A stretch of 64,000 nucleotides of DNA from an uncultured Flavobacteriaceae bacterium (lineage in GTDB: Bacteria; Bacteroidota; Bacteroidia; Flavobacteriales; Flavobacteriaceae). A program made the position numbers and the translations under genes. Below the pieces are notes generated by a model. That model searched no databases. It was not told the origin of the DNA and saw only the letters and a list, made by a program, of their open reading frames with translations. This document shows, one piece after another, positions 1 to 41,052 of the stretch (positions are counted from its first letter, which is position 1; each line of letters starts with the position of its first letter). Location: NCBI GenBank assembly GCA_947494325.1, contig CANLUS010000005.1, positions 62,001 through 126,000 on the forward strand. Reading direction: 5' to 3'.

Positions 1-36
1 ATAGATTTCTTTGGCGGTTTTATCGGTAGTTTGCAT
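1..36 (-). CDS. Start of an unidentified gene, cut by the window edge
   Basis: Twelve codons beginning with ATG at 36 (MQTTDKTAKEIY) read off the left edge. The start lies 14 nt after the stop of the NTF2-like gene on the same strand, a spacing that fits the tight operon running down from 4888. The fragment is too short to assign a family. It could still be a chance ATG, so this is only a probable further member of the catabolic operon. Confidence 0.35.
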   Translation of the reverse strand, partial: MQTTDKTAKEIY

Positions 37-50
37 AGTTGTATGATTCT

Positions 51-485
51 TTATTTTGTAGTTCTTTCTTTAATTTTGGAGGATTGCATTGAAATAATTT
101 GCCATCGTTCTTTTTCAAACGTCCAGATAACTGTTAAACGAAATCTTCCTTTATCGAAGTTTTTATACTTTCGTTCATTAATATAATTTGTTAGCACTAC
201 ATTTTCTGCCAAATTCATAAATTCAATAGCTGAACTTTCGTAACTCTCAAAGGTGTTTTTAAGATTCAATAGCGCAACTTTCGTATCGTATTTTTTGCCA
301 CTTTGAGAAGTTAATATAAGATTTGGATGATAGATTTTAGTCGCTAGGTCGAAATCACTATTCAAATGAGCGGTTCTTAACTGCGCTATTTGCTCTTTTA
401 TTTGTTGTTTCTTCTCATCGCTAACTTCTTGAGCGATTCCGAAAAGGAAAAAAAAACAACAGCAAAATGTGATTATAGTTTTCAT
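51..485 (-). CDS. Secreted NTF2-like (SnoaL/DUF4440-type) protein
   Basis: 144 residues. The first 18 or so form a Sec signal peptide with a Cys/Phe-rich hydrophobic core ending near IAQ. The remainder has the pattern of the DUF4440/SnoaL branch of the NTF2-like fold: a helix with AHLNSDFD, then YHPNLILTSQSG, and a late beta strand VIWTFEKERWQI. Family members are small cone-shaped proteins that bind or isomerise small molecules, and many are uncharacterised. It is the sixth gene of the minus-strand operon that starts with the HMG-CoA-lyase-like gene, 6 nt from the CoA-transferase gene. A periplasmic accessory or binding role in the same pathway is inferred from position only. Confidence 0.7.
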   Translation of the reverse strand: MKTIITFCCCFFFLFGIAQEVSDEKKQQIKEQIAQLRTAHLNSDFDLATKIYHPNLILTSQSGKKYDTKVALLNLKNTFESYESSAIEFMNLAENVVLTNYINERKYKNFDKGRFRLTVIWTFEKERWQIISMQSSKIKERTTK

Positions 486-491
486 ATGTAT

Positions 492-1673
492 TTAATCTAA
501 TTTAACAATTCCGGCCGCAACCATTTTTTCAATGGTCGCATCATCGATGTTTAGTTCTTTTAATACTTCCGAGGTATGTTCTCCAATCTTCGGAGGATCC
601 ATACGTTTCTCGATACGCGTTCCTTTGTATTCTAATGGAAATTTCGGAAGTTTCGTTAGTTTTCCGTCGCCCATATCTACCTCCATGAGGCTATTACCCT
701 CATTTAACTGTTCATCTTCAAAGAGATCTTCAGGTCTACTGATAGGGGCAAATGGGATATGCCCTTTGTCACACCTTTCAATAATTTCTTTTTTCGTGAA
801 TTCTTTGAAACGCTTTTCTAAGGCAGGAATAAACCATTCTCTTTCACCGATGCGTAAATTGTTGGTTTTTAATTTTTCATCATGAAGCCAATCTTGCCAA
901 TTAAAGACATCGCATAATCGTTCCCAATGTTTTTCACTGATGATTCCGACAAATACCTTGTCATTATCTTTTGTATCAAATACTTTATAGATTGACCAAG
1001 CACTTACCCGTGATGGCATAGGCGGTATTTTATAATCGATTTGAGAGGCATAGGCCATATGTTGTCCCATTAAAAAAGCACAGGTTTCGAATAATGCTGC
1101 TTTTACAAAACCACCTTTTCCTGTTTTTTCTCTTTCAAATAGTGCTTGTAGAATTCCAATATAACCAAACATGCCACCCGTAATGTCAATTACCGATGTA
1201 CCGGCGCGCAATGGGTCACCTTCGCGTCCTGTCATATAGGCCAAACCTCCCATCATTTGAACTACTTCATCCATGGCGTGTCTTTTCTCATAAGGACCAC
1301 TCAAAAATCCTTTCAAAGAGCAATAAATAAGACGTTCGTTAAAAGTTTTGAGCTTCTCATATCCTAGACCTAAACGATCCATGGTGCCTGGTCCAAAATT
1401 TTCTACCACTACATCATATTCTTTGACCAATTGATAGATTAGATCAATGCCTTCCTGCGATTTTAAATTGATAGCTAAACTCTTTTTATTTCGATTGTAA
1501 AACCAAAAATAGCCTGTGCCAAAGCCTTGTAACCTTCTAGTATTATCACCATTGATTGGTTCTACATGTACGACTTCCGCGCCCATATCTGCGAGCATGA
1601 GTCCAGCACAAGGCCCCATAACCGCATGCGTAAATTCTAAAACTTTGATACCTTTTAAAGGAGCGCTACTCAT
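492..1673 (-). CDS. Family III CoA-transferase (CaiB/BaiF type)
   Basis: 393 residues, the usual length of family III CoA-transferases, which move CoA between carboxylic acids through an aspartyl-CoA mixed anhydride. The N-terminal block (GIKVLEFTHAVMGPCAG, DMGAEVVHVEP) and the active-site region are clear. Asp135 in the HAMDEVVQMMGG segment aligns with the catalytic Asp of formyl-CoA transferase. The gene sits 1 nt after the CMD gene and is in one operon with a LeuC/LeuD-type hydratase and an HMG-CoA-lyase-like enzyme. This suggests it activates a 2-hydroxy-2-alkyl diacid (citramalate-like) to the CoA ester cleaved by the lyase. The exact acid and CoA donor cannot be read from the sequence. 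Confidence 0.9.
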   Translation of the reverse strand: MSSAPLKGIKVLEFTHAVMGPCAGLMLADMGAEVVHVEPINGDNTRRLQGFGTGYFWFYNRNKKSLAINLKSQEGIDLIYQLVKEYDVVVENFGPGTMDRLGLGYEKLKTFNERLIYCSLKGFLSGPYEKRHAMDEVVQMMGGLAYMTGREGDPLRAGTSVIDITGGMFGYIGILQALFEREKTGKGGFVKAALFETCAFLMGQHMAYASQIDYKIPPMPSRVSAWSIYKVFDTKDNDKVFVGIISEKHWERLCDVFNWQDWLHDEKLKTNNLRIGEREWFIPALEKRFKEFTKKEIIERCDKGHIPFAPISRPEDLFEDEQLNEGNSLMEVDMGDGKLTKLPKFPLEYKGTRIEKRMDPPKIGEHTSEVLKELNIDDATIEKMVAAGIVKLD

Positions 1674-1674
1674 T

Positions 1675-2235
1675 TTATTTTTTGTTTAGAGATTTATAAA
1701 AAGTTTCTGGAGCATTTTCTATAGTTGTATTTAAGGTAGAATTCCATCGATTCAAAAAACCGAACATGGCTATCACACTTACAATTTCTATCATTGCTTC
1801 GTTATCATAATATTTTTTGAGAATTTTAAAATCTTCATCTTTTATTTGGTTTGGAACCATACTGCCTTTTAGAGCAACGTTTAACGCCGCCTTTTCTGCA
1901 TCGGTAAACAAAGTCGAAGTTTGATATTCCCAGAGTTGATCTAGCTTCTCCTTTGCGACACCTTGTTCATTGGCTCCATATGCTGAATGTGCACTGCAAT
2001 ATTCGCATCCACTCGTTTTACTCGAAATATGACCGATCATTCTTTTTAAGCCTGCATCTATTTTCCCTTCAGCATAAATAGCCTTCGCTAAGTCAAAAAA
2101 GGAAGTTAAGACAGCAGGTTTATGAGCCATTGTTAATCCATCATTAGGCATAAAACCCATCCAAGCTTCTGCTTGTTTGAATAAAGGGCCTAATTTGCCT
2201 TGTTTCGGTTTTGATATAGGGTCAACTCTACTCAT
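1675..2235 (-). CDS. AhpD/carboxymuconolactone decarboxylase-family protein
   Basis: 186 residues with the all-helical AhpD-like fold signature. The redox motif Cys77-x-x-Cys80-x-x-His83 lies in the segment SGCEYCSAHS, preceded by a helix KRMIGHISSKTSG. CxxCxxH proteins of this family act as peroxidase partners or thiol-dependent redox proteins; the true decarboxylases lack the two cysteines. A disulfide or peroxide-linked redox role is therefore more likely than decarboxylation. It lies 3 nt after the small hydratase subunit and 1 nt before the CoA-transferase, so it is translated with the catabolic enzymes. Substrate is unknown. Confidence 0.8.
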   Translation of the reverse strand: MSRVDPISKPKQGKLGPLFKQAEAWMGFMPNDGLTMAHKPAVLTSFFDLAKAIYAEGKIDAGLKRMIGHISSKTSGCEYCSAHSAYGANEQGVAKEKLDQLWEYQTSTLFTDAEKAALNVALKGSMVPNQIKDEDFKILKKYYDNEAMIEIVSVIAMFGFLNRWNSTLNTTIENAPETFYKSLNKK

Positions 2236-2238
2236 ATA

Positions 2239-2742
2239 TTACAGCGAATAGTTTCCGTGTTTTGTTAAATAGTTTACCAATCCGCCTTCGTTTAAAATAT
2301 CGATCATGATGTCTGGGAGTTTCGTGGCGCTGTAGACTTTGTTTGCACTTAAATCTTTGACAATCCCTGCTTTTAAATCGATGTCAAGTTCGGCCCCTTT
2401 TTGAATATTGTGGTCTGCTATTTCTAATACAGGCAATCCAATATTAATAGCATTTCTAAAAAATATACGTGCAAAATCTTGGGCGATTACAACTGATACG
2501 CCGGCTTGCTTTAAGGCCAGTGGAGCTTGTTCTCGAGAAGATCCACAACCAAAGTTGATACCCGCTACAAGGATATCTCCTTGTTGAACAATTTTATTAA
2601 AGTTAGGATCTAAATCTTCTAAAACATGATCAGCCAACGTTGAAAGATCTAATGTCTTCGTATACTTTCCAGGAATGATACGGTCAGTATCAATATGGTC
2701 ACCATACACATGTGCTTTGGCATGTATCGTTGTTGCTTTCAT
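2239..2742 (-). CDS. Aconitase-family hydratase small subunit (LeuD/DmdB-like), copy 1
   Basis: 167 residues, the size of the stand-alone swivel subunit of archaeal-type isopropylmalate isomerase, homoaconitase and dimethylmaleate hydratase. It carries the start motif [14 protein letters not shown] and an intact substrate-recognition loop [12 protein letters not shown] at residues 63-74. It overlaps the large-subunit gene by one nucleotide, so the two chains are probably made together as a heterodimer. No leuA or leuB gene is nearby, and the flanking CoA-transferase and lyase point to hydration of an unsaturated diacid in catabolism rather than to leucine synthesis. The actual diacid (citraconate, dimethylmaleate or a longer alkyl-maleate) is inference. 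Confidence 0.88.
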
Positions 2743-3977
2743 TACAATAAATATTTTTTAGGATTTACAATATAGCCTTCCAGAGCAGCAGCAGCCACTG
2801 TAGATGGAGCTCCAAGATAAATATTAGAATTGGGGTTTCCCATACGTCCTCTAAAGTTTCGATTTGCTGCAGAAATAACTACTTCACCATCTGCCGGGAC
2901 CCCTTGATGAGTACCAACACAGGGTCCACAACCAGAAGTAATGAGTGAAGCTCCTGCTTCAATTAATGTGCTCATACTTCCATTTTTCATGGCGTCTAAT
3001 AATACACTTTGTGAGGCTGGTGCGATAACCATACGTACATCGGGATGTATTTTTTTACCTTTTAATATTTCAGCGGCGATGTCTAAATCTTCGAGGCGAC
3101 CATTACAGCAAGTGCCTATAAATGCGTAGTCAATTTTTGTGCCTTCGTAAGCCGAAATATTATGCACATTATCTGGAGATTCAGGAGCACTTACTTGAGG
3201 CTCTAAATCTGTAACATCGAAATCAAATACTTTTACATAGTTGGCATGTTCGTCTGGTGTTATTGCTTCAAAATCATAATCCAGTTGTAGTCCTTTCGGA
3301 TGTACAATACCAGTTTTCGCGCCCATTTCTGATGACATGTTCGCGATGGTCATGCGGCTCGCTAAACTCAAGCCTTCAAAAGCTTCTCCCGAAAATTCAA
3401 TCGCCTGATATGTGGCTCCAGAAACTGTTACTTTCCCTACTAAAAAGAGAATCAAGTCTTTTGCGGTCACTCCTTCTTTTAGTTTTCCTGAGCAATTAAT
3501 TTTAATAGTTTGAGGGACTTTGAGCCAAATTTTTCCTGTCATCATGGTGGCGGCTAGATCTGTAGAACCTACACCACAAGCGAAAGCGTTTAATGCTCCA
3601 TAAGTCGGAGTATGTGAATCGGCTCCAATAAAAATATCACCAGGTTTTACATAGTGATTTTCGACCATTACTTGATGGCAAATACCTTCTCCAATTTCAA
3701 ACAATCGCATGCCTTGTTCTTTAGCAAAATCGCGCATCATTTTATGTAAATTGGCAATACGTTCATTCGGTGAGGGTGCCGCGTGGTCGATGATTAATGC
3801 ACATTTTTCAGGATTAAAAACCTTTTTTCCACCCATTTCATGAAAGGCTTTTATGGTTAATGGTCCAGTTGTATCACTCGCCATAGCGCCGTCAACATCG
3901 CTTATAACCAGTTCGCCAGCAAAGACTTTTTTGCCTACATGTTTTGATATTATTTTTTCTGATATTGTTTGTCCCAT
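2742..3977 (-). CDS. Aconitase-family hydratase large subunit (LeuC/DmdA-like), copy 1
   Basis: 411 residues, typical of the HacA/LeuC2/DmdA group. The three 4Fe-4S ligands are Cys290 (in IGTCCNGRLED), Cys350 and Cys353 (in SGCGPCVGTHQG). The substrate motif GADSHTPTYGAL lies at residues 118-129. The family adds or removes water across a C=C bond beside a carboxylate, using the cluster as Lewis acid. Its stop codon overlaps the start of the small subunit, and its start overlaps the stop of the lyase gene by one base. With the CoA-transferase and HMG-CoA-lyase-like enzyme it fits hydrate, activate, cleave chemistry. A second, divergent LeuC/LeuD pair lies at 27511-30666. Confidence 0.9.
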   Translation of the reverse strand: MGQTISEKIISKHVGKKVFAGELVISDVDGAMASDTTGPLTIKAFHEMGGKKVFNPEKCALIIDHAAPSPNERIANLHKMMRDFAKEQGMRLFEIGEGICHQVMVENHYVKPGDIFIGADSHTPTYGALNAFACGVGSTDLAATMMTGKIWLKVPQTIKINCSGKLKEGVTAKDLILFLVGKVTVSGATYQAIEFSGEAFEGLSLASRMTIANMSSEMGAKTGIVHPKGLQLDYDFEAITPDEHANYVKVFDFDVTDLEPQVSAPESPDNVHNISAYEGTKIDYAFIGTCCNGRLEDLDIAAEILKGKKIHPDVRMVIAPASQSVLLDAMKNGSMSTLIEAGASLITSGCGPCVGTHQGVPADGEVVISAANRNFRGRMGNPNSNIYLGAPSTVAAAALEGYIVNPKKYLL

Positions 3978-4888
3978 TAGATCATTTTAATGTCTTCCTT
4001 ATCTACTAATTGGTATAACTGTCCGGGTAGCTTTAAACCTAATGTTGTTTCCATTTCTCTACTGATGGCTGCTATTTTATGAATGTCTACACCGGTTTCA
4101 TAACCCATTTGATGTATCATATGAGCACTGTCTTCTGTGGCAATATTACCTGTAGCACTTTTTATAAATGGGCAACCTCCCAAACCACCAAAAGCTGTGT
4201 CGAATATTTGCACTCCTGCTTCGATGGCAGCATATAAATTGGCATATCCTTTATTTTCTGTATTGTGAAGATGTAACACAACCGGTACGGTACCAGCTTT
4301 TTCAACAACTTTGTGCATAAGTTGGCCGAGTTGTTTTGGATTTCCCATACCCGTAGAATCTGCCAATGCGAGTTCATCAATGCCCGCGTCTAAATGATGA
4401 TCTACCATGTCTAACACATGATTTGGATCAATATGACCTTCATAACGACAACCAAAGGCACATTGAATACCTCCTCGAACAGTTATGTTATTTGATTTAG
4501 AAAGCTTCACCATTTCATTGAATACTTTTTTAGCTTCCAACAAGGTAAGTCTCGCATTTTTTTGGCTATGTGTATCGCTTGCTGAAATTGAACAAGCAAG
4601 ATGGTCTAAGCCAGCATCAATACCCCTTTCGACACCTTTTAAATTGAGAACGAGTCCGCTGTAAATGACATCAGGTTGTTTTTCTACTTGATTACAAATT
4701 GCCTCTGCATCAGCCATCTGTGGTACAAGTTTAGGATGTACAAAAGAGGCTATTTGTATCCGTTTGACTCCTGCAGCTACCAATTGATCAATATAGGCCA
4801 TTTTTTTCGCAGTTGGAATGACCTGAGAAAGGGTTTGAAAACCATCTCTAAGACCCTGCTCTTCTAAGATAATGTGCTTAGTGTTCAT
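3977..4888 (-). CDS. HMG-CoA lyase-like enzyme (DRE-TIM metallolyase)
   Basis: About 303 residues from the ATG at 4888. An in-frame TTG at 4906 would add six residues, but it lies inside the operator palindrome, so the ATG is preferred. The protein has EQGLRDGFQ (the DRE-TIM metal and catalytic Arg-Asp), IQIASFVHPKLVPQM, the metal histidines in VVLHLHNTENKG, and the C-terminal loop FDTAFGGLGGCPF with the conserved loop Cys. Family members cleave 3-hydroxy-3-alkyl acyl-CoAs into a keto acid and an acyl-CoA. As first gene of the operon with a hydratase and CoA-transferase, it probably cleaves a citramalyl-CoA-like ester to pyruvate (or a homologue) plus acyl-CoA. True HMG-CoA from leucine breakdown is the alternative. 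Confidence 0.85.
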   Translation of the reverse strand: MNTKHIILEEQGLRDGFQTLSQVIPTAKKMAYIDQLVAAGVKRIQIASFVHPKLVPQMADAEAICNQVEKQPDVIYSGLVLNLKGVERGIDAGLDHLACSISASDTHSQKNARLTLLEAKKVFNEMVKLSKSNNITVRGGIQCAFGCRYEGHIDPNHVLDMVDHHLDAGIDELALADSTGMGNPKQLGQLMHKVVEKAGTVPVVLHLHNTENKGYANLYAAIEAGVQIFDTAFGGLGGCPFIKSATGNIATEDSAHMIHQMGYETGVDIHKIAAISREMETTLGLKLPGQLYQLVDKEDIKMI

Positions 4889-4899
4889 ATATAACAAAG

Positions 4900-4938
4900 A
4901 TAACAAAATTAGTTAACTATGTTAACTAATTTTGTTAT
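4900..4938. promoter_or_regulatory. Perfect 39-bp palindrome between divergent operons (operator, site 1)
   Basis: The left arm 4900-4917 and the right arm 4921-4938 are exact 18-base reverse complements around the spacer TAT. The core is AGTTAAC-N3-GTTAACT at 4911-4927. The outer flanks contain TAATTTTG (4927-4934, plus strand) and its mirror image (4904-4911, minus strand), each matching the Bacteroidota -7 consensus TAnnTTTG. The palindrome may therefore serve transcription in both directions. It separates the lyase operon from the aldehyde dehydrogenase operon. Related sites are at 11990, 13875, 26869 and 36283. A dimeric regulator is inferred; its identity is not known. Confidence 0.85.
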
Positions 4939-5013: not shown

Positions 5014-6429
5014 ATGAAGGTACGTAACCCATTTACAGGTCACTATGATTATGAATTAGTTGAAGATTCTGGTCAAGATATTTTAGAAAAAACCAAAGAA
5101 ATTCGTGAAGCTCAGGCAACCTGGAAATCATTGGATATAATTGAACGAGTAGGAATATTAAAGAAATGGATTACAAGTTTTATGGAATTTCAATCTGAAA
5201 TTACAGAGCAGTTAGCAATAGATACAGCTAGAAAAAGAATCGCTAGTGTCGAAGTGGAAGGAATTATTGGGTTAATGCAAGCTTGGTCATTTAGGGCTCC
5301 ACAATTATTTAAACCTCCTGTCGATCGATCTTCGGCTTCTGCAAGTTCTGTAATGATTGGTCAACAATGGGTACCGTATGGTGTTGTAGGGGTTATCAGT
5401 CCGTGGAACTTCCCTTTACTATTAGCATTAATTGATACTATTCCCGCGCTAATGGCAGGTTGTGGAGTCTTGTTAAAACCTAGTGAAGTTACGCCGAGAT
5501 TTATGGATGGACTAGAAAAAAGTATAAAAGCAGTTCCTGAATTGGCCAACGTACTTAAATTAGTTAGAGGTGGAGCGGAGGCGGGTAAGGCTGTGGTGAA
5601 TAATGCCGACGCTATTTGTTTTACCGGAAGTGTACCTACGGGTAAAAAAATTGGGGCGGTTTGCGCTGAACGGTTTATACCAGCTTTTTTGGAGTTAGGA
5701 GGAAAGGATCCTGGAATTGTATTGAAAGATGCTGATTTAGAAGTCGCTACAGATGCTGTGCTTAGAAGTGCGGTTGGCGCTACTGGTCAGGCATGTCAGT
5801 CTTTAGAAAGAATCTATGTTGATAACACTATTTATGATGATTTTGTGAAAATCATATCTAATAAAGCGGAAAGAGTTACTTTAACGACGGACCTTAATAA
5901 AGGACAAATGGGACCTTTGATTTTTGAGCAGCAAGCGAAAAAAATACAAGAACAAATTGACGATGCGTTATCAAAAGGCGCGAAAGTCCTCACTGGTGGA
6001 AAAGTTGAAACAATTAATGGTGGGATATGGTGCGAACCAACAGTGCTTATCAACGTAGATCATACGATGAAGGTAATGACAGAAGAAACATTTGGGCCAA
6101 TAGTTCCAATCATGGCTTTTTCAACGGTCGAGGAGGCTTTAAAATTAGCAAATGATAGTATTTACGGCTTATCAGCCTCTGTCTTTTCTAAAGATATTGA
6201 GAATGCTATTGCCATAGGTTCTCAAATTGAAGCAGGTGCTATAAGTATCAATGATGGTAGTTTAACGAATAAAGTATATGACGCCGAAAAGAACTCATTT
6301 AAATATTCTGGGATTAATGGTTCAAGAATGGGAGATGCAGGTTTTTTGAGGTTTTTTAGAAAAAAGGCCTTATTGATTCAAACGGCACATCCAGAGACTA
6401 TGGCAAATTTTGAAGAAACAAGTTCCTAA
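5014..6429 (+). CDS. NAD(P)-dependent aldehyde dehydrogenase
   Basis: 471 residues, the standard ALDH superfamily length. The N-terminal coenzyme region contains VISPWNFPLLLALID and the nucleotide loop FTGSVPTGKKIG. The general base Glu227 lies in FLELGGKDPG and the catalytic nucleophile is Cys261 in GATGQACQS. It oxidises an aldehyde to a carboxylate with NAD(P); the substrate cannot be told from motifs. It is the first gene to the right of the 39-bp palindrome and overlaps the following lipoprotein gene by 20 nt, so it belongs to the same regulon as the lyase operon. The ATG at 5014 follows the palindrome by 75 nt and leaves room for a leader. Confidence 0.93.
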   Translation: MKVRNPFTGHYDYELVEDSGQDILEKTKEIREAQATWKSLDIIERVGILKKWITSFMEFQSEITEQLAIDTARKRIASVEVEGIIGLMQAWSFRAPQLFKPPVDRSSASASSVMIGQQWVPYGVVGVISPWNFPLLLALIDTIPALMAGCGVLLKPSEVTPRFMDGLEKSIKAVPELANVLKLVRGGAEAGKAVVNNADAICFTGSVPTGKKIGAVCAERFIPAFLELGGKDPGIVLKDADLEVATDAVLRSAVGATGQACQSLERIYVDNTIYDDFVKIISNKAERVTLTTDLNKGQMGPLIFEQQAKKIQEQIDDALSKGAKVLTGGKVETINGGIWCEPTVLINVDHTMKVMTEETFGPIVPIMAFSTVEEALKLANDSIYGLSASVFSKDIENAIAIGSQIEAGAISINDGSLTNKVYDAEKNSFKYSGINGSRMGDAGFLRFFRKKALLIQTAHPETMANFEETSS

Positions 6430-8128
6430 TTTGATGTCTAGTTGTGTGAGAGAAAGTGTTAACATATTGATATGCCTTTGTTGGGTTGCGATTATTAGTT
6501 CTTGTAGTCAAAACACTTTTAAAATTAACGATTACTATCCTATTGCCGACGAAAACGAATGGCGCTATACCGCTCCCGCGGGATGGAAAGATGGTGATTA
6601 TATTTCTCGTATTGAAGAGGTGTCGGGTGGATTTTCCTCTCTTTTTACTGAAATACAGGGTGAAGACGGATCCAAACTTTTTGCATTAAATGAAAATGAT
6701 AAGACTTTTCGTCATTACGATGCCACCAAAGCTTCAAAACTACTATCAGTAAATGAAGAAGGGATCTTTTATCATGGAGAGGCGTTTTCGAGTGATGGAA
6801 GTATTGCCGTTTTCGAAAAACCAATACGATGGTTTAAAGCAAAAGAGTGGATAAAATCTAGCATAAATGTGAAAAGAAATTTTATCCGTTTTTTCAAAGA
6901 TGGGACTCGGCAAGACGGTATTTTCACATTGAAACAAAAAGTTGCAAAAAAAGAAGATGTAAGCACACCTGCTGGAAATTTTAAAGATTGTCTACGAATT
7001 GAATTTAATACTTATTGGGATTTAGGAAAAGGTACGGAAGCAAAGTCAATCAATGTCTATTACCACGCGAAGGATATCGGTGTAGTGAAGGCTTCAGCTC
7101 GTTTTATTATTCTGAAAAATGACCAAGAAATTATAAATAGACTGGTACAGCCAGAACTGAAGTCCTACACTTTGAATGATGGTTCTAGTTCCTCCCTAAA
7201 ACTACCTATCTCTCCTAAGGTTTCTACTATGCATCGCATTAAAATGGCGACTATTGTTTCTCAAGACATAGAAACATCAACGAACTTGTATCAAGATTGG
7301 CTCAATTATAGTGTTGTAGAAGAAGGAGTATTAAGTAGTGCTATGACGAAAGTTTGGGGTACGCCGAAAATGACAGGTAAACCATACGCCTTACTCCAGC
7401 CTGAAAGTGGTGATGATGTTTATTTAAGAGTGATTCAAGGTACGGTCCCAAAAAATTATAAAGCGATGACGACTTATGGATGGAATGCGATCGAATTAAT
7501 TGTGGAGGATCCTGATGCCGTCTATGAGAAATTATTAAAGAGTCCTTTTACGTATTTAGATGGCCCGGCAAACTTAGGAGATGAATTTTCTACAATTCGC
7601 GCGGTTCAATTCAAAGGACCCTCTGAAGAAGTGTTTTATTTTACTACAGATACTGGCGATCGGTCGACTTCAACTTTACTAACGTCTAGATCTTCTATAG
7701 ACCGTATATTTATTATGGTTGTTGGAGTTTCCAATGCAAGAGTTGTGACCGAATTTTATAAAAGCAATTTCGGCGTTAAGGAAGCTTTTTTTATTAATAC
7801 ACCAATTGGTTTAATCGCTTCTGCTCAAAACTTACCTGATGATCATAAATTCCCTCTTAGTTTAGTACGACTTGGTGCTTTTAGTAATTCAATTGAAATA
7901 GATGAATACCCTAAAACAGCCCAAAAAAGACCAGTCGCTGAAGGAGAATTACCTCCTGGTATATCTATTTCCTCTTTTACAGTTGAGAATTTGGATTTAA
8001 TAAACCCAACTTTATTTGTAAGTACTCCTGAGATACTGGATGGCATTGGGTATAATGGAAATCGAACAGCCACCATTATTGGTCCTGCAGGTGAAATGAT
8101 AGAATTGATTGAAGAGAAAAAGGAGTAA
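6410..8128 (+). CDS. Lipoprotein with TapB/DUF3108-like domain fused to two VOC domains
   Basis: 572 residues. A lipobox IISSC places the acylated Cys at 32, so the protein is probably anchored in an outer or inner membrane. Residues 38-250 resemble the secreted YYPxxxxNxWxY family, with STPAGNFKDC and KDIGVVKASARF near its end. Residues 280-420 and 430-565 each look like a vicinal-oxygen-chelate (glyoxalase/dioxygenase) repeat, with the strand patterns KMATIVSQDIETSTNLY and IFIMVVGVSNARVVTEFY, but clear metal ligands are not obvious. It overlaps the aldehyde dehydrogenase gene by 20 nt; a start at 6434 would remove the overlap. The VOC pair may bind rather than oxidise a ligand. Function unknown. 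Confidence 0.75.
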   Translation: MKKQVPNLMSSCVRESVNILICLCWVAIISSCSQNTFKINDYYPIADENEWRYTAPAGWKDGDYISRIEEVSGGFSSLFTEIQGEDGSKLFALNENDKTFRHYDATKASKLLSVNEEGIFYHGEAFSSDGSIAVFEKPIRWFKAKEWIKSSINVKRNFIRFFKDGTRQDGIFTLKQKVAKKEDVSTPAGNFKDCLRIEFNTYWDLGKGTEAKSINVYYHAKDIGVVKASARFIILKNDQEIINRLVQPELKSYTLNDGSSSSLKLPISPKVSTMHRIKMATIVSQDIETSTNLYQDWLNYSVVEEGVLSSAMTKVWGTPKMTGKPYALLQPESGDDVYLRVIQGTVPKNYKAMTTYGWNAIELIVEDPDAVYEKLLKSPFTYLDGPANLGDEFSTIRAVQFKGPSEEVFYFTTDTGDRSTSTLLTSRSSIDRIFIMVVGVSNARVVTEFYKSNFGVKEAFFINTPIGLIASAQNLPDDHKFPLSLVRLGAFSNSIEIDEYPKTAQKRPVAEGELPPGISISSFTVENLDLINPTLFVSTPEILDGIGYNGNRTATIIGPAGEMIELIEEKKE

Positions 8129-23407: not shown

Positions 23408-23441
23408 TTTTTTAAAATTTAAGTACTTAAATATTATTGTT

Positions 23442-34771: not shown

Positions 34772-34776
34772 ATATT

Positions 34777-36207
34777 ATGATGAAATATGATATTCTTATA
34801 GTGGGTGCAGGCACAGCTGGAATGAGCTGTGCCATTAACGCTGCTCAGCGCGGATTGAAAGTTGGGGTGGTTGAAAAGTCAGATTATTATGGCGGTGCGT
34901 TGCATTGGTCTGGTGGTCATATGAGTGCCGGAGGGACGCGTCTTCAAAAAGAACAAGGTATTGAGGATTCGATTGAGAAACATCTAGATGAAATCTATCA
35001 AATTAATAACAAGTCGGGAGATCACCATCTAATCGAAAAGGCGGTGAATGAAGCCCCCGAAACTATTAAATGGTTAGACGATAATGGTATGGAATGGGCA
35101 CCTGAATGTCCAAGGATAATTTATGGTCATGTAGCATATAAAACGCCTCGTACTATTTATGGTCCAGACAAAGCAATGAGTATTTATAAAGTAATGGCAC
35201 CTTTATGGGATGAGCAAGTCTCTAAAGGAAATATTGAATGTCATTTTAATAATACATTTACAGGTCTCGATACATCCAATGGACGTTTTGATGCGGTTAT
35301 TTGTAACACACCTGATGGTGAGTGCCGCTATGCAGGTAGACATATTATAATAACCTCCGGAGGCTACGGAAGCAATCCTGCCTATTTTCAAGAAAAGCAT
35401 CCAGGCATTCCTTTAGTAAGTTCTTGCTATCCAACGGCCACGGCCGATGGGCATGTAATTCTAGAAAAGCAAGGAGCAAAATTTCGTTTCGGGACCTATC
35501 ATTTACCCAGCTTAGGAGGAATGGAAGAGGAAGAAGGAAGCGGACGATGCGATTTTAATAAAGCGTGGGCGATGGTACTAACATCTGTTTATAGGAACCC
35601 AAGAGATATTTATGTGAATGCAAACGGAGAACGCTTTATCGCTGAAGATGAAGTGGATCCTGAGAAGCGAGAATTGGCAACTATGCAGCAACCAGATTGG
35701 TGTTTTTGGGTAATTTTTGACGAGGATGGATTAATTTCGAATGACGAAAACGGAAATCATAATCCAATCATTATTGGAAGAACTATTAGTGAAATGAAAG
35801 CTGAAGCCGAGAAGGAAAATGCTTTGTGTATGGCAGATACTATAGAAACATTGGCACATAAGACTGGACTTCCGGTAGGAACACTTGAGAAAACTATTGC
35901 AAAATATAACGGGATGGTGGATAATAAGAAGGATCCCGATTTTGGAAGAACTTATTTAGAAGATCCGATTCGTAAGGCCCCGTTTTACGCGTTGAAAGTG
36001 CATGCATCTGTATTAGTGACATTTGGGGGTATTAAAGTTGATAAAGATTTAAGAGTACTAGATGCCGAAGGATCTCCAATGAATGGATTGTATGCTGCGG
36101 GAGAAGTATTAGGGTTGGGAGCGACTAGTGGAAGTTCATTTTGTAGCGGAATGGCGATTACTCCAGCACTAAGTTTCGGTCGGATTTTAGGAAGAACACT
36201 TTCTTAA
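34777..36207 (+). CDS. FAD-binding flavoprotein of the fumarate reductase/tricarballylate dehydrogenase type
   Basis: 476 residues. The dinucleotide fold is at the N-terminus (DILIVGAGTAGMSCAINAAQRG, VEKSDYYGGALHWSGGHMSAGG) and the C-terminal FAD cap is GLYAAGEVLGLGATSGSSF. The middle capping domain has IYVNANGERFIAED, typical of the FAD_binding_2 family (fumarate reductase, urocanate reductase, tricarballylate dehydrogenase, 3-ketosteroid desaturase). Such enzymes add or remove two hydrogens across a C-C bond beside a carbonyl. No signal peptide is seen, so it is cytoplasmic. It is placed between the A and B subunits of the hydantoinase, 5 nt after A. Its acceptor and substrate are unknown. 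Confidence 0.9.
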   Translation: MMKYDILIVGAGTAGMSCAINAAQRGLKVGVVEKSDYYGGALHWSGGHMSAGGTRLQKEQGIEDSIEKHLDEIYQINNKSGDHHLIEKAVNEAPETIKWLDDNGMEWAPECPRIIYGHVAYKTPRTIYGPDKAMSIYKVMAPLWDEQVSKGNIECHFNNTFTGLDTSNGRFDAVICNTPDGECRYAGRHIIITSGGYGSNPAYFQEKHPGIPLVSSCYPTATADGHVILEKQGAKFRFGTYHLPSLGGMEEEEGSGRCDFNKAWAMVLTSVYRNPRDIYVNANGERFIAEDEVDPEKRELATMQQPDWCFWVIFDEDGLISNDENGNHNPIIIGRTISEMKAEAEKENALCMADTIETLAHKTGLPVGTLEKTIAKYNGMVDNKKDPDFGRTYLEDPIRKAPFYALKVHASVLVTFGGIKVDKDLRVLDAEGSPMNGLYAAGEVLGLGATSGSSFCSGMAITPALSFGRILGRTLS

Positions 36208-36299: not shown

Positions 36300-36310
36300 A
36301 ATTTTGAATT

Positions 36311-37930
36311 ATGCAAGAAACGAAGACAACATTTGATCCAATTGCTCTAAGTATTCTGTGGTCAAGACTAATCAGTATTGTTGATGAAGCGGGTACGACA
36401 TTGCAGCGAACGTCTTTTTCTACAGTAACGAGGGAAAGTAATGATTTTGCAGTAGTTTTAATGGATAAAAAAGGGCGTTCTATTGCGCAATCGAGCGTAT
36501 CAGTACCATCGTTTTTAGGCGTTTTACCAATTTTGACAAAAGCATTATTAAAAGATTACTTTCCAGAAGATACATGGAATGATGGCGACGTCGTTATGAC
36601 CAACGATCCATGGTTATGTGCTGGTCACAAACCAGATATTGGTATTGTTTCTCCTATTTTTCATCAAAAAAAATTGATTGGTTTTATCGGTACAATTGCC
36701 CATTCACCCGATATGGGAGGTCAACTCTGGGGTGCAGGTACCAGAGACTTATATGAAGAAGGCTTAATGGTACCACCAACAAAGTTGATTTCTAAAGGTG
36801 TTCCAAACCAAACACTGTTTAATATTTTAGAACAAAATGTAAGGGCTGCTGATCAAACTGTTGGAGATATAAGGGCGCAGGTTGCTGCCAATGATCAAGG
36901 TATTAAATCATTGATGAAATTGATGGAAGAAAATGATTTAGATGACCTTCAAGAGTTGGCAGATGCTGTAATTAATGCTTCCGAAAAAGCAATGCGAGAG
37001 GCCTTACTAGCTGCTCCAGATGGTAGCTATAGTTATTCCTATGATACGGATGGAGATGGTCTTGGTACAGGTTGTCATTTTGAAATTACAATTACTATAA
37101 AAGGTGATGAAATTGTTGCTGATTATACTGGTACTTCAGGGGCACATTATATGAGTATCAATGCAGTATTAAATTATACATTCGCGTACACGGCTTATCC
37201 CATTAAGTGTGCTTTTAGCCCTGATGTACCGAACAATGATGGATCTTTTTACCCCATCACCGTGACAGCGCCTAAGGGATGTTTGGTTAATGCACAAAAA
37301 CCAGTGCCGTTAGGAGCTCGAAATGTGACGGGCAATATGTTACATTCGGTTGTTTTTGGTGCCTTAGCGAAAGCAGTACCCGAGCAAGTGCAAGCGGATT
37401 GCGGAAGTGCTTGCTGGTGTATAGTATTGAATGGTGAACATAAAGGAAAAGAATTTGTAGAGTACTTTTTCTTAAACGGAGGTTATGGAGCCAGACCTAA
37501 CATGGACGGTGAGCATGTATTGAGTTTTCCTACCAACGTGGCTAATGTGCCAATAGAAGTATTAGAAACTGATGTGGCAGTGCTAGTAACCGAAAAATCC
37601 CTTATCCCAAATTCAGCGGGTAGCGGAAAATATCGAGGAGGTCTAGGACAGCGTTTTAGCTTTAAAAATATAGGCGAAAATGCAATTAATGTATCCATGG
37701 TTGCCGAAAAAACTGTAACTTCAGCTAAGGGATTATTAGAAGGAAAAGATGGACAGATGGGATCTGTGAAAATTAGACCAGAACGCGAATTTCCATCAAA
37801 AGGATTAGATAAATTATTTCCTGGCGAGGAACTAATTTTAACCTTACCAGGAGGGGCGGGCTATGGTAATCCAGCAGAAAGAGATAAAAAATCAATAGAA
37901 CAGGATATTGCTTTGGGATACGTTTCATAG
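36311..37930 (+). CDS. Hydantoinase/oxoprolinase subunit B
   Basis: 539 residues, typical for HyuB. The family start FDPIALSILWSRLISIVDEAG, TLQRTSFSTVTRESNDF, the metal/substrate block NDPWLCAGHKPDIGIVSP and FIGTIAHSPDMGG, and the C-terminal GGLGQRFSFKN and TLPGGAGYGNP are all present. Subunit B carries the hydrolytic site; ATP use is by subunit A at 32699. Here the pair is split by a flavoprotein gene and a separate operator, an unusual layout since A and B genes are normally adjacent or fused. The ATG at 36311 gives the expected family N-terminus, so a later start is unlikely. Confidence 0.93.
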   Translation: MQETKTTFDPIALSILWSRLISIVDEAGTTLQRTSFSTVTRESNDFAVVLMDKKGRSIAQSSVSVPSFLGVLPILTKALLKDYFPEDTWNDGDVVMTNDPWLCAGHKPDIGIVSPIFHQKKLIGFIGTIAHSPDMGGQLWGAGTRDLYEEGLMVPPTKLISKGVPNQTLFNILEQNVRAADQTVGDIRAQVAANDQGIKSLMKLMEENDLDDLQELADAVINASEKAMREALLAAPDGSYSYSYDTDGDGLGTGCHFEITITIKGDEIVADYTGTSGAHYMSINAVLNYTFAYTAYPIKCAFSPDVPNNDGSFYPITVTAPKGCLVNAQKPVPLGARNVTGNMLHSVVFGALAKAVPEQVQADCGSACWCIVLNGEHKGKEFVEYFFLNGGYGARPNMDGEHVLSFPTNVANVPIEVLETDVAVLVTEKSLIPNSAGSGKYRGGLGQRFSFKNIGENAINVSMVAEKTVTSAKGLLEGKDGQMGSVKIRPEREFPSKGLDKLFPGEELILTLPGGAGYGNPAERDKKSIEQDIALGYVS

Positions 37931-37966
37931 CAATAATTTTAATATAATGTCTAATAGTTAGAAAAT

Positions 37967-39151
37967 ATGGCAAAGAATTTAACCCCAGTTTGGAATAAGG
38001 TAGCAAAGCATGCCATGCTACCAGAAACAACACATGATGAGCGCGCGCGGTATAATTTCTTATCGAACTTAAACAAACATCTTGCGCATGTTTCACATGG
38101 CACGAAAACGGCTTATGAAACTCGCGTTGTGCCAAAATTTAGAAAGAAACACGGTCGTGATATACAGAATAGAACCGAGTTAAAAGAGGCAATTGAAAAA
38201 GATCCGCATTACCAAATTTGGTCTTCTTTACGGAGAAGTACAATGGAAATGCGTCAGCAAGCGGGCCGATCTTTAACCTTACGTCAAGCAACATCCTTAC
38301 GTGATAAAGCTTCAGCATTAAATGAAGGGAAATCTACGTTGGTATTAAACCCTGAAGTCAAGGTTCCTGAGTATTTATTGGCAGTAGATAATCATATCAT
38401 GCCTGGGAGCTACCATACTGAATTATTAGAAGGAGATGTGACTCCTGCTGCTAATTATGATTCTGGAATTTTTGTCACGACTGCTGGTTTAATTGGTCGT
38501 TATAATGACGGTGGTGGAAAAGCAATTACGACATGGGTACGACAAAATTATCCAGAATTTAAACCAAAGCGAATTCTAGATATTGGTTGTGGTTTGGGTC
38601 ATAATGTGCTGCCAATTGCTAAGGCCTATCCGGATGCTGAAATTATAGCAATTGATACAGGGGCTCCTATGTTGAGATATGGCCATGCTCGTGCCATGGA
38701 TTTAGGATATAAAAACGTAACTTTTATGCAGATGGATGCAGCAAAAACAATCTTTGAAGATGAGTCTTTTGATTGGATTCAATCTACAATGTTTTTGCAT
38801 GAAACAGGAGGGAAGTCTATTTATAATATTATGGATGAGGTATATCGTTTACTCAAACCAGGAGGATTGACGCTTCATATTGAACAACCTCAATATACTG
38901 ATGACATGTCTGAATATGAGAAGTTCATGCGAGATTGGGATGCCTTGAATAATTCTGAGCCCTACTGGTCAAAAATGCATGATATTGACCCTGTAGAACT
39001 GATGGCAGCATCGGGATTCAAAAAAGAAGATTTTATGCAGATTGGCGCTAAAGCGGAAAACGATTTAATTGAAGGCGGCGTTAATGAAGAAGAACCAGAA
39101 GATTTTGGAAGATCCCCAATTTGGAATGTATTTGGAGCAATTAAAAAATAA
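37967..39151 (+). CDS. SAM-dependent methyltransferase with unknown N-terminal region
   Basis: 394 residues. A class I methyltransferase core occupies about residues 195-330: motif I ILDIGCGLGHNVLPIAKAYP, acidic ribose-binding IIAIDTGAPML, then FMQMDAAKTIFEDESFD and LLKPGGLTLHIEQPQ. The first 190 residues are charged, helix-rich and match nothing I know. They include HDERARYNFLSNLNKHLAHVS and a Lys/Arg-rich patch, and may bind substrate or a partner. The methyl acceptor is unknown; carboxyl, O- or C-methylation of an intermediate are all possible. Spacing is 36 nt from subunit B and 3 nt from the next small gene, so it belongs to the operon. Confidence 0.85.
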   Translation: MAKNLTPVWNKVAKHAMLPETTHDERARYNFLSNLNKHLAHVSHGTKTAYETRVVPKFRKKHGRDIQNRTELKEAIEKDPHYQIWSSLRRSTMEMRQQAGRSLTLRQATSLRDKASALNEGKSTLVLNPEVKVPEYLLAVDNHIMPGSYHTELLEGDVTPAANYDSGIFVTTAGLIGRYNDGGGKAITTWVRQNYPEFKPKRILDIGCGLGHNVLPIAKAYPDAEIIAIDTGAPMLRYGHARAMDLGYKNVTFMQMDAAKTIFEDESFDWIQSTMFLHETGGKSIYNIMDEVYRLLKPGGLTLHIEQPQYTDDMSEYEKFMRDWDALNNSEPYWSKMHDIDPVELMAASGFKKEDFMQIGAKAENDLIEGGVNEEEPEDFGRSPIWNVFGAIKK

Positions 39152-39154
39152 GAA

Positions 39155-39517
39155 ATGGAAGAAGAGTTAGATTATATAAAATTAGCATCGAATAAATCGA
39201 AAGGAAAACGTCCCTATTTTCATGATGATCATGCGGTAGAACGGGTATTGAATATAACGATGGCTATTGCAGGTGAACTGGCGGTAATTAGAGAGCGTAT
39301 GGATAGTATTGAACGCCTTTTAGAAAAAAATGGAACAGTTTCCAGAGAAGATATTGAGAACTTTGTACCTGAAACACCAGAACAAGAAGAACAACGTCAG
39401 TCATGGCATAGTGAGTATATTTCGAGGGTGCTGCGCATCGTTCAGCAAGAACAGGAAGAGATGGAAAATCCAGATAAAAGTATAGAGGAGATTGCCAACG
39501 ATATAAATGAAATGTAA
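39155..39517 (+). CDS. Small acidic protein of unknown function
   Basis: 120 residues, rich in Glu, Asp and Arg, with strong helix or coiled-coil character (about 30-65 and 80-118: IAGELAVIRERMDSIERLLEK, QEEQRQSWHSEYISRVLRI). The central segment GTVSREDIENFVPE may be a linker. I do not recognise a family. It starts 3 nt after the methyltransferase gene and its stop overlaps the next start by one base. It might be a small partner subunit of the methyltransferase, which is suggested by position only. Confidence 0.7.
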   Translation: MEEELDYIKLASNKSKGKRPYFHDDHAVERVLNITMAIAGELAVIRERMDSIERLLEKNGTVSREDIENFVPETPEQEEQRQSWHSEYISRVLRIVQQEQEEMENPDKSIEEIANDINEM

Positions 39518-39942
39518 TGGCCGAATTACACGACAGAATAACGAAATTTTTCAATGCGATTATTGCGGAGAATATTGAAGAAATTAAGAATGGATATGTG
39601 CAAGATGAAAGAACTTATGTTGTTCTTGAAGGGCCAAGATATAGCACAAAAGGATACTCAATGATCGCAAAAGGATGGGGAGACTTTACAACCTCACCGA
39701 TTGCCATGACTAAAATAGTTTGGACAGAAGGCCCATTTGAAGAAATTATTGGAGATATGGGATGGATTAGTGGAATCACAGAATTATATCTGAACGTAAA
39801 TGGGAAGGAAGTTTTTAATACTTTTCGTTCATCTTTTGTTTTCAAACGGGAGGACAATGATTGGAAGATTCGCCACGAACATGTATCTGCGCCACATCCT
39901 GACCCGTATGGAGTTGGCGATTGGTTAAAGAAAGATAAATAA
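39517..39942 (+). CDS. SnoaL/NTF2-like protein
   Basis: 141 residues without a signal peptide. The pattern is that of NTF2-like proteins: a first helix AELHDRITKFFNAIIAENIEEI, YVVLEGPRYSTKGYSMIAKGWGDF, then beta strands EIIGDMGWISGITELYLNV and SSFVFKREDNDWKIRHEHVSAP. The last is the typical DUF4440/SnoaL_3 closing motif (W-K-I-x-H-x-H). Small-molecule isomerases, cyclases and hydratases occur in the family. It differs from the secreted NTF2-like protein at 51-485. It overlaps the preceding stop by one base and lies 18 nt before the second CpeT-like gene. Confidence 0.8.
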   Translation: MAELHDRITKFFNAIIAENIEEIKNGYVQDERTYVVLEGPRYSTKGYSMIAKGWGDFTTSPIAMTKIVWTEGPFEEIIGDMGWISGITELYLNVNGKEVFNTFRSSFVFKREDNDWKIRHEHVSAPHPDPYGVGDWLKKDK

Positions 39943-39960
39943 TTATCAAAATACTACTAT

Positions 39961-41052
39961 ATGAAGCCCGTTAAAAAAACAATGATAACCCTTATTTTTT
40001 TAATGGGTTTTTTAATTGGTCATTGTCAAAAAAAAGAAAAACCATTGGCTAGTTCACCCTCAATGGGAACAACATCTAAAACTAGTGTAAATCGATTGAG
40101 TACTACCGTAGAACCTAATAGGAAGTTTTCTTATGTTGAGCGTGAATTGGACTACTTAAAATATATTTGGGAAGGTGAATACGACAACGTTGAGCAATTA
40201 GATTTTGATAAAATTCAGCGTAAAGATGATGCTAAAAAAGCAGTTCATGAACGTGTTCATGTTTCAGTACGACCATTTCAAAATTCAAATTTTGGTGTTG
40301 GAGCTGTCTACATCGAAGAGTATAGAAACAATGATCCAACCGTCATTACTCGGCAGGTTATTTATCAACTATTGCCTGATGATAAAGAGAAAGCAATACG
40401 TGTGAAGGTATTTCATTTTATAGATAGGATGCCGATTTTGTCGAATAATAGAAGTTTTGGAGAGATTGCCAATCTAACTCCAAATTCTAATAGATTGGTC
40501 CTAGGTTGTGAAATGCTACTCAGAAGAGTTGGAAATGGATTCGTGGCAAAAACAATTAATAAAACCTGTATTCAAAAGAATCGTACAACTATTGATTATC
40601 AATTTAGGGTTTCAGAAGATAATTTTAGTTTTCAAGAAATTACCTATGTTTCAAATAAGCGGTTACCTGATGATATGCAGACAAATGCTTATTCCTTAGA
40701 AAAAGCCAGATGTTTTACGTGCATGATAGATTTTCCTAACAATACAAACGGAAGACCTACTGAAACAAAATATTACATTGATATTTATGATCAAGGAGGG
40801 ACGTTTAATTTTGATTATCCTGATGGGCGCAATATGTCTTTTGGAATGCGTAATACTTGGTCTTTCGGTATGCATAGAGAAACATTTGTTATCTATATTA
40901 TAGATATAAATACAAAGAAAACCTTAGTATATTCTTGGGGTGAGCCTGGTGCAGATCGTATTGGTTTTAATCCGGGTTGGATTAGAGCGCAATGCGATTT
41001 AAAAACACCTCGAAATGTAAAATTACAACAAGAATTGCGGCCAAAATCTTAA
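39961..41052 (+). CDS. CpeT/CpcT-like protein with extra C-terminal domain (copy 2)
   Basis: 363 residues. A signal-like hydrophobic start (ITLIFLMGFLIGHCQ) may end in a lipobox at Cys23. About residues 58-215 are CpeT-like: LKYIWEGEYDNVEQ, GAVYIEEYRNNDPTV, VIYQLLPDDKEKAIRVKVFHF, then LVLGCEMLLRRVGNGFVAKT with a Cys-containing strand. Residues 240-355 form an additional beta-rich part (ARCFTCMIDFPNNTNG, YYIDIYDQGGTFNF, TFVIYIIDINTKK) not found in the first copy at 23442. CpeT relatives bind phycobilins in cyanobacteria (family knowledge). It is the last gene of the plus-strand operon and converges on the LacI-type gene 13 nt away. Confidence 0.75.
   Translation: MKPVKKTMITLIFLMGFLIGHCQKKEKPLASSPSMGTTSKTSVNRLSTTVEPNRKFSYVERELDYLKYIWEGEYDNVEQLDFDKIQRKDDAKKAVHERVHVSVRPFQNSNFGVGAVYIEEYRNNDPTVITRQVIYQLLPDDKEKAIRVKVFHFIDRMPILSNNRSFGEIANLTPNSNRLVLGCEMLLRRVGNGFVAKTINKTCIQKNRTTIDYQFRVSEDNFSFQEITYVSNKRLPDDMQTNAYSLEKARCFTCMIDFPNNTNGRPTETKYYIDIYDQGGTFNFDYPDGRNMSFGMRNTWSFGMHRETFVIYIIDINTKKTLVYSWGEPGADRIGFNPGWIRAQCDLKTPRNVKLQQELRPKS

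Follow-up and report, generated by a model that had tools for sequence, protein, structure and literature searches.

A conserved cluster of about 70 genes in Bacteroidota and its possible role in the catabolism of linear tetrapyrroles

The DNA analysed here (the window, 64,000 nucleotides) spans bases 62,001-126,000 of contig CANLUS010000005.1 (C5, 354,831 bases) of an uncultured Flavobacteriaceae bacterium (Bacteroidota; genome of 3.64 Mb, 99.4% complete), so that window base 1 is contig base 62,001. Its first 41,052 bases belong to a gene cluster that extends, by our own count, over 70 genes and 71.8 kb (C5:31,286-103,052) and that may enable its host to degrade open-chain bilin pigments. 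A preliminary description of the window had proposed the degradation of a pyrrole-type pigment for positions 1-41,052. The genes are as described there, and Pfam and NCBIfam searches recovered every family that it named, including two LeuC/LeuD pairs, a family III CoA-transferase, HMGL and HpcH lyases, AceE/AceF, a TonB receptor and two MFS carriers, but they form only the right-hand part of a larger block of about 70 genes. The left border at window base 1 proved to be an artefact of the window: in the 40 kb of left flank that were read, the genes continue leftward to a MarR gene at C5:31,286, 30.7 kb before window base 1, and catabolic genes run without clear break from there to the CpeT gene ending at window position 41,052. 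The right border agrees with that of the preliminary description, with genes for LacI, USP and RimP coming next; LacI adjoins the block in only 2 of the 44 related loci described below.

Left of the window, the cluster encodes, among others, two proteins of the PuuE type and one of the isochorismatase type, two nitrilases, VOC proteins, CurA-type ene reductases, two flavoenzymes of the amine-oxidase family, three DUF1838 proteins, an FGE-like protein, a cytochrome c and two further CpeT proteins. The FGE/SUMF1-like gene (L005:18217-19164) lies between DUF1838a/peroxiredoxin and CpeT1 and is retained in several Maribacter clusters.

All four matches to the CpeT family (PF06206) above the Pfam cut-off in this genome lie inside the cluster. 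The two CpeT-like proteins noted in the preliminary description are both real and above this cut-off, but the whole cluster holds more, namely five to six proteins of the CpeT type. Among these, lipo249 is related to CpeT by profile (E 3.2e-38 to CpeT3) and has no Pfam match at E 0.001. P190 has no convincing Pfam match either (none at E 0.001); its predicted model is confident (pLDDT 94.7) and finds CpcT with bound phycocyanobilin (4o4s; E 1.7e-5, TM 0.68) as best fold in the PDB, followed by a phage CpeT (5hi8). By this model, P190 is a protein of the CpeT / T-type lyase fold. CpeT3 alone matches CpcT (4o4o) at E 4.1e-4, while a profile of 15 CpeT proteins of the cluster type matches CpcT (4o4o) at 3.2e-18, phage CpeT at 3.5e-4, plant CRL at 0.04 and nothing else in the PDB up to E 0.1. 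Invariant in the alignment of these 15 are G50, N54, Q57, R107, Q108, C159 and C179 (CpeT3 numbering). CpcT binds open-chain bilins (PDB 4o4s). The link of the cluster to bilins drawn in the preliminary description thus appears firmer at the sequence level, given the enlarged set and a phycocyanobilin lyase, CpcT, as the only strong PDB match of its profile. Since none of 18 genomes, this one included, encodes a phycobiliprotein (PF00502), the cluster's CpeT proteins have no antenna of their host to serve, and we therefore do not file them as phycobiliprotein lyases.

Related clusters were located by scanning 84,980 named species for HyuB, one of two putative lactamase subunits encoded in the window, which yielded 44 loci. 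HyuB is 83-96% identical in Flavobacteriaceae (Maribacter, Croceitalea, Aquimarina, Muricauda and others), 71-81% in metagenome-assembled genomes (MAGs) of Saprospiraceae, 69-73% in MAGs of Cytophagales and Bernardetiaceae, 72% in one Kapaibacterium MAG and 39% in one Roseomonas; at the last locus (L051) only HyuA and HyuB were matched, and we treat it as another pathway. Across the 33 loci with more than 21 kb around HyuB, HyuA recurs in 29, the methyltransferase, P120 and SnoaL in 28, HapK and SDR3 in 27, LeuC2 and HpcH in 26, LeuD2 in 25, AmOx3 in 23, FADred in 22, DUF3598 in 18 and CpeT4 in 16. The search for the same gene set in other marine Bacteroidota, which the preliminary description had suggested, was rewarding: in longer stretches fetched for this comparison (genes counted at an identity of at least 40% to the 70 genes), five Flavobacteriaceae keep 55-64 of the 70 genes together, with 64 in M. 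algarum (G395), 62 in M. vaceletii (G397), 64 in a Croceitalea (G398), 55 in an Aquimarina (G399) and 61 in a Maribacter (G400). These clusters span 63-73 kb and contain 1, 5, 2, 4 and 6 other open reading frames (ORFs), respectively; the order of their blocks is shuffled and their flanks differ. A smaller version on a single contig occurs in two other families (24 genes each in G283 and G341, 23 in G034, 26 in G013 and 19 in G131, whose contig is 24 kb long). AceE is part of all five flavobacterial clusters and of none of the core clusters fetched from the distant families.

The arrangement is looser elsewhere. Bernardetiaceae and other Cytophagales have the cluster genes dispersed over contigs, and HyuA is not beside HyuB in four long loci (L032, L033, L036, L048). 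At three of these (L032, L033 and L048, from Bernardetiaceae and Cytophagales MAGs), a HyuB of 72-73% identity stands alone, with DUF1838, PuuE, CpeT and AmOx on other contigs, and the pathway genes may be scattered in these genomes. CpeT and DUF1838 have a large TonB receptor and a weakly SusD-like protein as neighbours in a Kapaibacterium-type genome (L102:15674-20146), an arrangement that suggests SusCD-like uptake.

The co-occurrence of these genes was also followed across the phylum. In a sample of 395 genomes drawn evenly, HyuB was matched in 60, at 66% identity or more in only six and at 37% at most in the remainder. DUF1838 was found in seven genomes, strongly in the same six and under the Pfam cut-off in the seventh (G236); P190 occurs in exactly those six; and CpeT occurs in 28, all six included. 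Hypergeometric values for six of six are 2e-13 for DUF1838 and 7e-8 for CpeT but overstate the evidence because the six genomes represent only three genera. G107, which belongs to the same genus as the window's genome, lacks all four. The 22 genomes that carry CpeT and no close HyuB mostly have a single, shorter copy that is often a better match to PF06206. DUF1838 is present in 26 of the 29 genomes reached via HyuB loci (27 of 30 with this genome), CpeT at the Pfam level in 21 of the 29, and PuuE1 (identity of at least 47%) in 17 of the 30, beside a second copy in 13 of those. No PDB match at E 0.001 was found for the AlphaFold model of DUF1838 (pLDDT 70, moderate), its best E-values coming with TM below 0.3, and a fold assignment was dropped. 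Since this many of the 70 genes lie together in five genomes and HyuB, DUF1838 and P190 are common to the same six of 395, the cluster is more than a chance assembly, and its nature as a single catabolic unit is well supported.

The preliminary description had ascribed the opening of lactam or imide rings to HyuA/HyuB, of which the lactam part fits their nearest models. Both subunits resemble caprolactamase, whose subunits are the named NCBIfam models nearest to them (HyuA scores 550.7 with CapA and HyuB 209.9 with CapB, each below the equivalog cut-off of 1000), which is a likeness at the family level only; HyuAB as a carboxylase or as caprolactamase proper was rejected because of such scores. 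Given this lactamase-like character, the candidates for imide opening are instead the two proteins of the PuuE type that are encoded left of the window. PuuE1 matches 3s6o (9.1e-26), 3cl6 (PuuE; 6e-25) and 3qbu (4e-9) in the PDB, and PuuE2 matches 3cl6 (1.1e-22) and 3qbu (1.5e-10). According to an excerpt of PMC9304392, the fungal protein HxnM is a cyclic imide hydrolase in vivo, is 64% identical to the cyclic imide hydrolase of P. putida and has 3qbu, a relative of PuuE, as its nearest structure; the PuuE superfamily therefore includes imide hydrolases. The clusters of G283 and G341 (Kapaibacterium-type genomes) lack the PuuE pair and carry an amidohydrolase with D-hydantoinases and allantoinases as nearest PDB relatives. 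D-hydantoinase-like imidases are known, one of them hydrolysing maleimide, as far as reference titles in PMC9863593 tell. Such a swap of PuuE for an unrelated amidohydrolase would be expected of a ring-opening step that the pathway needs.

PuuE1, PuuE2 and the isochorismatase-type protein are encoded next to LeuCD1-HMGL-CaiB. The isochorismatase-type protein (Pfam E 1.2e-26) conserves D36, K130 and C163 in 14 sequences, presumably the catalytic Asp, Lys and Cys. Like LeuCD-type hydratases, both large subunits come with a separate small subunit, score above subfamily cut-offs and have intact Fe-S cysteines (C290, C350 and C353 in LeuC1; C301, C361 and C364 in LeuC2). HMGL passes the cut-off of the HMG-CoA lyase subfamily, and its catalytic R20, D21, H212, H214 and C245 are conserved in 14 sequences. 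CaiB, HpcH and HyuAB match at the superfamily level and no equivalog, CaiB staying below the NCBIfam cut-offs for formyl-CoA, succinate-glutarate and mesaconate transferases. AceE is the sole homodimeric pyruvate dehydrogenase E1 above cut-off in this genome. The cluster thus likely contains a module that opens imides or ureides together with one for C-branched dicarboxylates, and its enzymes fit a path from imide over half-amide, alkylmaleate and alkylmalate to pyruvate and acyl-CoA. Judged by its genes, the imide/maleate/pyruvate route of the preliminary description appears coherent, strengthened by PuuE1, PuuE2 and the isochorismatase-type protein left of the window.

We propose, with about even confidence, that the cluster catabolises a linear tetrapyrrole, the most plausible candidates being phycobilins or bilin peptides from red algae and cyanobacteria. 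Slightly more tentative is the claim that the route is complete and aerobic, leading from a linear tetrapyrrole of the phycobilin or biliverdin type to pyruvate, acyl-CoA and ammonia, with CpeT proteins as substrate handlers and all four rings recovered through imide and lactam opening. We infer the substrate, the order of the steps and every reaction as follows. A bilin would be taken up by the TonB receptor and held by lipoprotein and cytosolic proteins of the CpeT fold. Its bridges would be split by extracytoplasmic flavoenzymes of the amine-oxidase type, DUF1838, VOC proteins and ene reductases, giving one-ring lactams and imides. Lactams would be opened by HyuAB with ATP, and maleimides or succinimides by the PuuE-type pair, while the isochorismatase-type enzyme and nitrilases would free ammonia. 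The resulting alkylmaleates would go to the two LeuCD-type hydratases, each of which would hydrate those from one kind of ring, either bearing the propionate arm or lacking it. For one alkylmalate, the CoA-transferase would attach CoA and the HMG-CoA-lyase type enzyme would then release pyruvate and an acyl-CoA, namely glutaryl-CoA in the case of hematinic acid and butyryl- or crotonyl-CoA in that of the methyl-ethyl or methyl-vinyl ring. The other alkylmalate would pass through the HpcH aldolase, and AceE/AceF would convert pyruvate to acetyl-CoA. An alkylated citramalyl-CoA would share the tertiary alcohol of HMG-CoA and by analogy be cleaved to pyruvate and an acyl-CoA. The presence of two hydratase pairs and of two lyases would agree with two kinds of ring.

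Homologues of PaO are absent from all 18 genomes and heme oxygenase (PF01126) from 14 of them, this one included; an already open tetrapyrrole therefore fits better than a macrocycle, and a heme or chlorophyll route via heme oxygenase or PaO is not supported. The ecology fits red-algal pigments only loosely: in the excerpts of the published sources, the red alga Gelidium is the origin of M. algarum RZ26 (L011) and of strain 4-528, which we tied to locus L013 by its isolate name.

Several observations weigh against a bilin as substrate. Among the families identified, no enzyme of the cluster has a known bilin-cleaving activity, the scheme has no role for the methyltransferase, P120 and SnoaL, and it also leaves DUF1838 and the FGE-like protein unexplained. 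The sequence tie between P190 and CpeT is weak (E 7.5e-6 over 48 columns; probability 27 in another comparison). The CpeT proteins of the cluster are diverged and score lower with PF06206 than most stand-alone CpeT proteins of the phylum, which weakens a simple transfer of function. CpeT is absent at the Pfam level from 8 of the 29 HyuB genomes, among them the Saprospiraceae G407, G411 and G414, which carry much of the block; G414 does have P190-like and lipo249-like ORFs. Heme oxygenase is present in four genomes of the core lineages (G034, G131, G283, G341), on other contigs than the cluster. The same source excerpts report that M. vaceletii (L014) was isolated from a sponge and that strain 4-528 reached its largest share of reads on the green alga Ulva. 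The PuuE superfamily holds both imide and allantoin activities, PuuE itself being an allantoinase, and the isochorismatase-type protein is about equally close to 4l07 (7e-26), which we take to be a maleamate amidase, and to an N-carbamoylsarcosine amidohydrolase (26st; 1.4e-25). These two relationships keep a ureide ring among the possible substrates.

The cluster may instead degrade another abundant nitrogen heterocycle of algae or cyanobacteria, a lactam, imide or ureide such as an alkaloid, a mycosporine-like compound or a pyrrole pigment like prodiginine, with the CpeT-fold proteins binding that ligand. This is the main alternative, which we rate as less likely than a linear tetrapyrrole. 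Hydrolases of C-N bonds dominate the cluster (HyuAB, two PuuE-type proteins, isochorismatase, nitrilases), PDB relatives of PuuE and of the isochorismatase act on ureides as well as imides, and HapK is, we assume, a member of a prodigiosin-linked family. Lipocalin-type folds like that of CpeT can bind other ligands, and CpeT occurs in 22 genomes of the phylum that lack the cluster, but the only strong PDB match of the CpeT profile is a bilin lyase. A ureide route, moreover, has no need of two LeuCD hydratases, a CoA-transferase and an HMG-CoA-lyase type lyase, while two hydratases would be in keeping with a compound whose alkylated rings are of two kinds. A creatinine-type ureide route built on HyuAB and the N-carbamoylsarcosine-amidohydrolase-like protein was rejected as a full explanation because it leaves LeuCD, HMGL and CaiB unused.

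That closed macrocycles (chlorophyll derivatives or heme) are degraded via an unrecognised ring-opening enzyme seems improbable to us. The same monopyrrole products would result, candidate oxidative enzymes are many (amine-oxidase family, VOC, FGE-like), heme oxygenase lies elsewhere in 4 of the 18 genomes and P220 is weakly similar to HemJ; the distribution of PaO and heme oxygenase described above and the binding of open-chain bilins in the CpeT family (CpcT, PDB 4o4s) speak against it. Biosynthesis or modification of a pigment or secondary metabolite, to which the methyltransferase and the HapK-like protein in the core might point, is very improbable in view of the catabolic character of the hydratases, lyases, CoA-transferase, AceEF, MFS acid carriers, TonB receptor and amidohydrolases, and no backbone synthase is among the families found in the cluster. 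We give the least credit to several unrelated operons that became neighbours by chance: genes are scattered in Bernardetiaceae and Cytophagales and HyuB lacks an adjacent HyuA in four long loci, but 55-64 of the 70 genes are contiguous in shuffled order in five genomes, 19-26 share one contig in two distant families, and the key genes occur jointly in six of 395 genomes. Catabolism of a linear tetrapyrrole is the reading that we favour.

The genes of the window part are listed in Table 1. The ORFs called for P285 and CpeT3 share 86 bases, and the true start of P285 is probably an internal ATG ahead of its lipobox. The claim that P220 is a HemJ of the protoporphyrinogen oxidase type was dropped on account of the score given there.

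Table 1. Cluster genes within the window (core gene: kept in the reduced clusters of G013, G034, G131, G283 and G341).
Feature	Position	Strand	Evidence and remarks
DUF4440, NTF2-like small protein	51..485	-	Pfam E 3.2e-7; in 3/5 flavobacterial clusters (best hit at least 40% identity) and others
CaiB, CoA-transferase family III	492..1673	-	Pfam E 6.5e-108; core gene
CMD/peroxidase-related protein	1675..2235	-	Pfam E 6.5e-10
LeuD1, aconitase-type hydratase small subunit	2239..2742	-	Pfam E 3.1e-18; core gene
LeuC1, aconitase-type hydratase large subunit	2742..3977	-	PRK00402 552.8 vs cut-off 385; core gene
HMGL, HMG-CoA-lyase type lyase	3977..4906	-	PRK05692 295.5 vs cut-off 246; core gene
Aldehyde dehydrogenase	5014..6429	+	Pfam E 1.1e-106
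DUF3108-like lipoprotein	6410..8128	+	Pfam 29.7 vs 27 bits; lipobox by simple scan
DUF1838d lipoprotein	8222..9127	-	Pfam E 1.2e-69
TonB-dependent receptor	9219..11873	-	Pfam
Flavodoxin_2 NAD(P)H oxidoreductase	12226..12891	-	Pfam E 8.9e-48
Alpha/beta hydrolase	12918..13733	-	Pfam
AceE, homodimeric pyruvate dehydrogenase E1	13957..16632	+	TIGR00759 1237 vs 859.9 bits
AceF, E2	16663..18276	+	Pfam E 1.5e-75; TIGR01348 461.9, under cut-off 552.1
Alpha/beta hydrolase lipoprotein	18321..19208	+	Pfam; absent from five compared clusters
P220 membrane protein	19238..19900	+	Weak UPF0093 (HemJ-type) similarity, 18 bits vs cut-off 34.2
P240	19907..20629	+	Weak DUF3108 similarity, 18.5 vs 26 bits
VOC_g, glyoxalase/dioxygenase superfamily	20622..21647	+	Pfam E 1e-12
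CurA4, MDR-type ene reductase	21654..22661	-	Pfam ADH_zinc_N
P285 lipoprotein	22670..23527	-	No Pfam family; conserved next to CpeT3
CpeT3, T-type bilin-lyase-like	23442..24149	-	PF06206 E 1.2e-25
MFS organic-acid carrier	24152..25417	-	Pfam; TIGR00893 304.9, under cut-off 395
MFS monocarboxylate/oxalate-type carrier	25419..26687	-	Pfam; L-lactate MFS model 152.5, under cut-off 320
DUF3598-like protein (DUF3598_N)	26949..27467	+	PF12204 26.4 vs 22 bits, weak but over cut-off; core gene
LeuC2, hydratase large subunit	27511..28779	+	PRK00402 513.8 vs 385; core gene
AmOx3, flavin amine-oxidase family	28782..30128	+	Pfam E 1.8e-47
LeuD2, hydratase small subunit	30139..30666	+	Pfam E 1.1e-6
HpcH/HpaI-type aldolase	30670..31431	+	Pfam E 1.2e-34; HpaI 165, under cut-off 369
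HapK/RedY-like protein	31456..31767	+	PF11639 34.7 vs 25 bits
SDR3 dehydrogenase	31777..32610	+	Pfam E 2.5e-57; core gene
HyuA, ATP-dependent lactamase/hydantoinase subunit	32699..34771	+	Pfam E 1.3e-88
FADred, FAD-dependent fumarate-reductase-like oxidoreductase	34777..36207	+	Pfam E 2.5e-56
HyuB, second lactamase/hydantoinase subunit	36311..37930	+	Pfam E 1.8e-143; 44 related loci
S-adenosylmethionine (SAM) methyltransferase, N-terminal half without assigned family	37967..39151	+	Pfam E 1.8e-20; core gene
P120	39155..39517	+	No Pfam family; in 35/44 loci
SnoaL_3, NTF2-like	39517..39942	+	Pfam E 8.5e-9
CpeT4, T-type bilin-lyase-like	39961..41052	+	PF06206 E 5.4e-13

Tetrapyrroles are among the most abundant pigments, and if the proposed route is true, the nitrogen and carbon of phycobilins would be available to marine and mat Bacteroidota. 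It would provide genes and a testable route, offer P190, DUF1838 and the HyuB clade as markers of phycobilin turnover in metagenomes, and give the CpeT family a new role outside phototrophs. Whatever its substrate, the 70-gene unit is an undescribed pathway so far as our literature search reaches, and it places DUF1838 in a first functional context. Among the matches listed for searches on CpeT, bilin and phycobilin degradation, we found no bacterial route from bilin rings to central metabolism. What is new is the pathway, while its single enzymes belong to known families.

Each part of the cluster has relatives in described systems. To our knowledge, bacterial heme oxygenases and bilirubin reductase stop at bilins or reduced bilins; the cluster is proposed to act on tetrapyrroles as well, but down to the level of the rings, and no heme oxygenase is encoded in it or elsewhere in this genome. 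With the T-type lyases CpcT and CpeT (PF06206; 4o4o, 4o4s, 5hi8), the cluster's proteins share the hidden Markov model family, the motifs G..DN..Q and RQ, two Cys and, in P190, the fold. In contrast to them, they occur in several copies beside catabolic enzymes, in 18 genomes without phycobiliprotein, and a lipoprotein nature or an additional C-terminal domain is common among them. HyuAB belong to the two-subunit ATP-dependent family of caprolactamase CapAB, N-methylhydantoinase and acetophenone carboxylase but score far below all equivalog cut-offs, HyuB being 65-72% identical across its own clade in core lineages and no more than 37% identical to the remaining HyuB proteins of the phylum sample. 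Nicotinate fermentation uses a two-subunit, aconitase-type dimethylmaleate hydratase and a dimethylmalate lyase that yields pyruvate and an acid. By its genes, the cluster would likewise pair such a hydratase, putatively for a dialkylmaleate, with a pyruvate-yielding cleavage, but the lyase is of the HMG-CoA-lyase type with a CoA-transferase, or HpcH, and not of the dimethylmalate lyase family. Closest to the ring-opening steps are cyclic imide catabolism and the fungal nicotinate enzymes HxnM/HxnN, in which a PuuE-superfamily protein opens an imide and an amidohydrolase then acts on the half-amide; HxnM has been compared with 3qbu and the P. putida cyclic imide hydrolase (excerpt of PMC9304392), and both PuuE-type proteins described here match 3qbu. 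Unlike in that system, the cluster has two PuuE-type genes and HyuAB, two LeuCD hydratases and lyases follow, while CpeT and DUF1838 precede.

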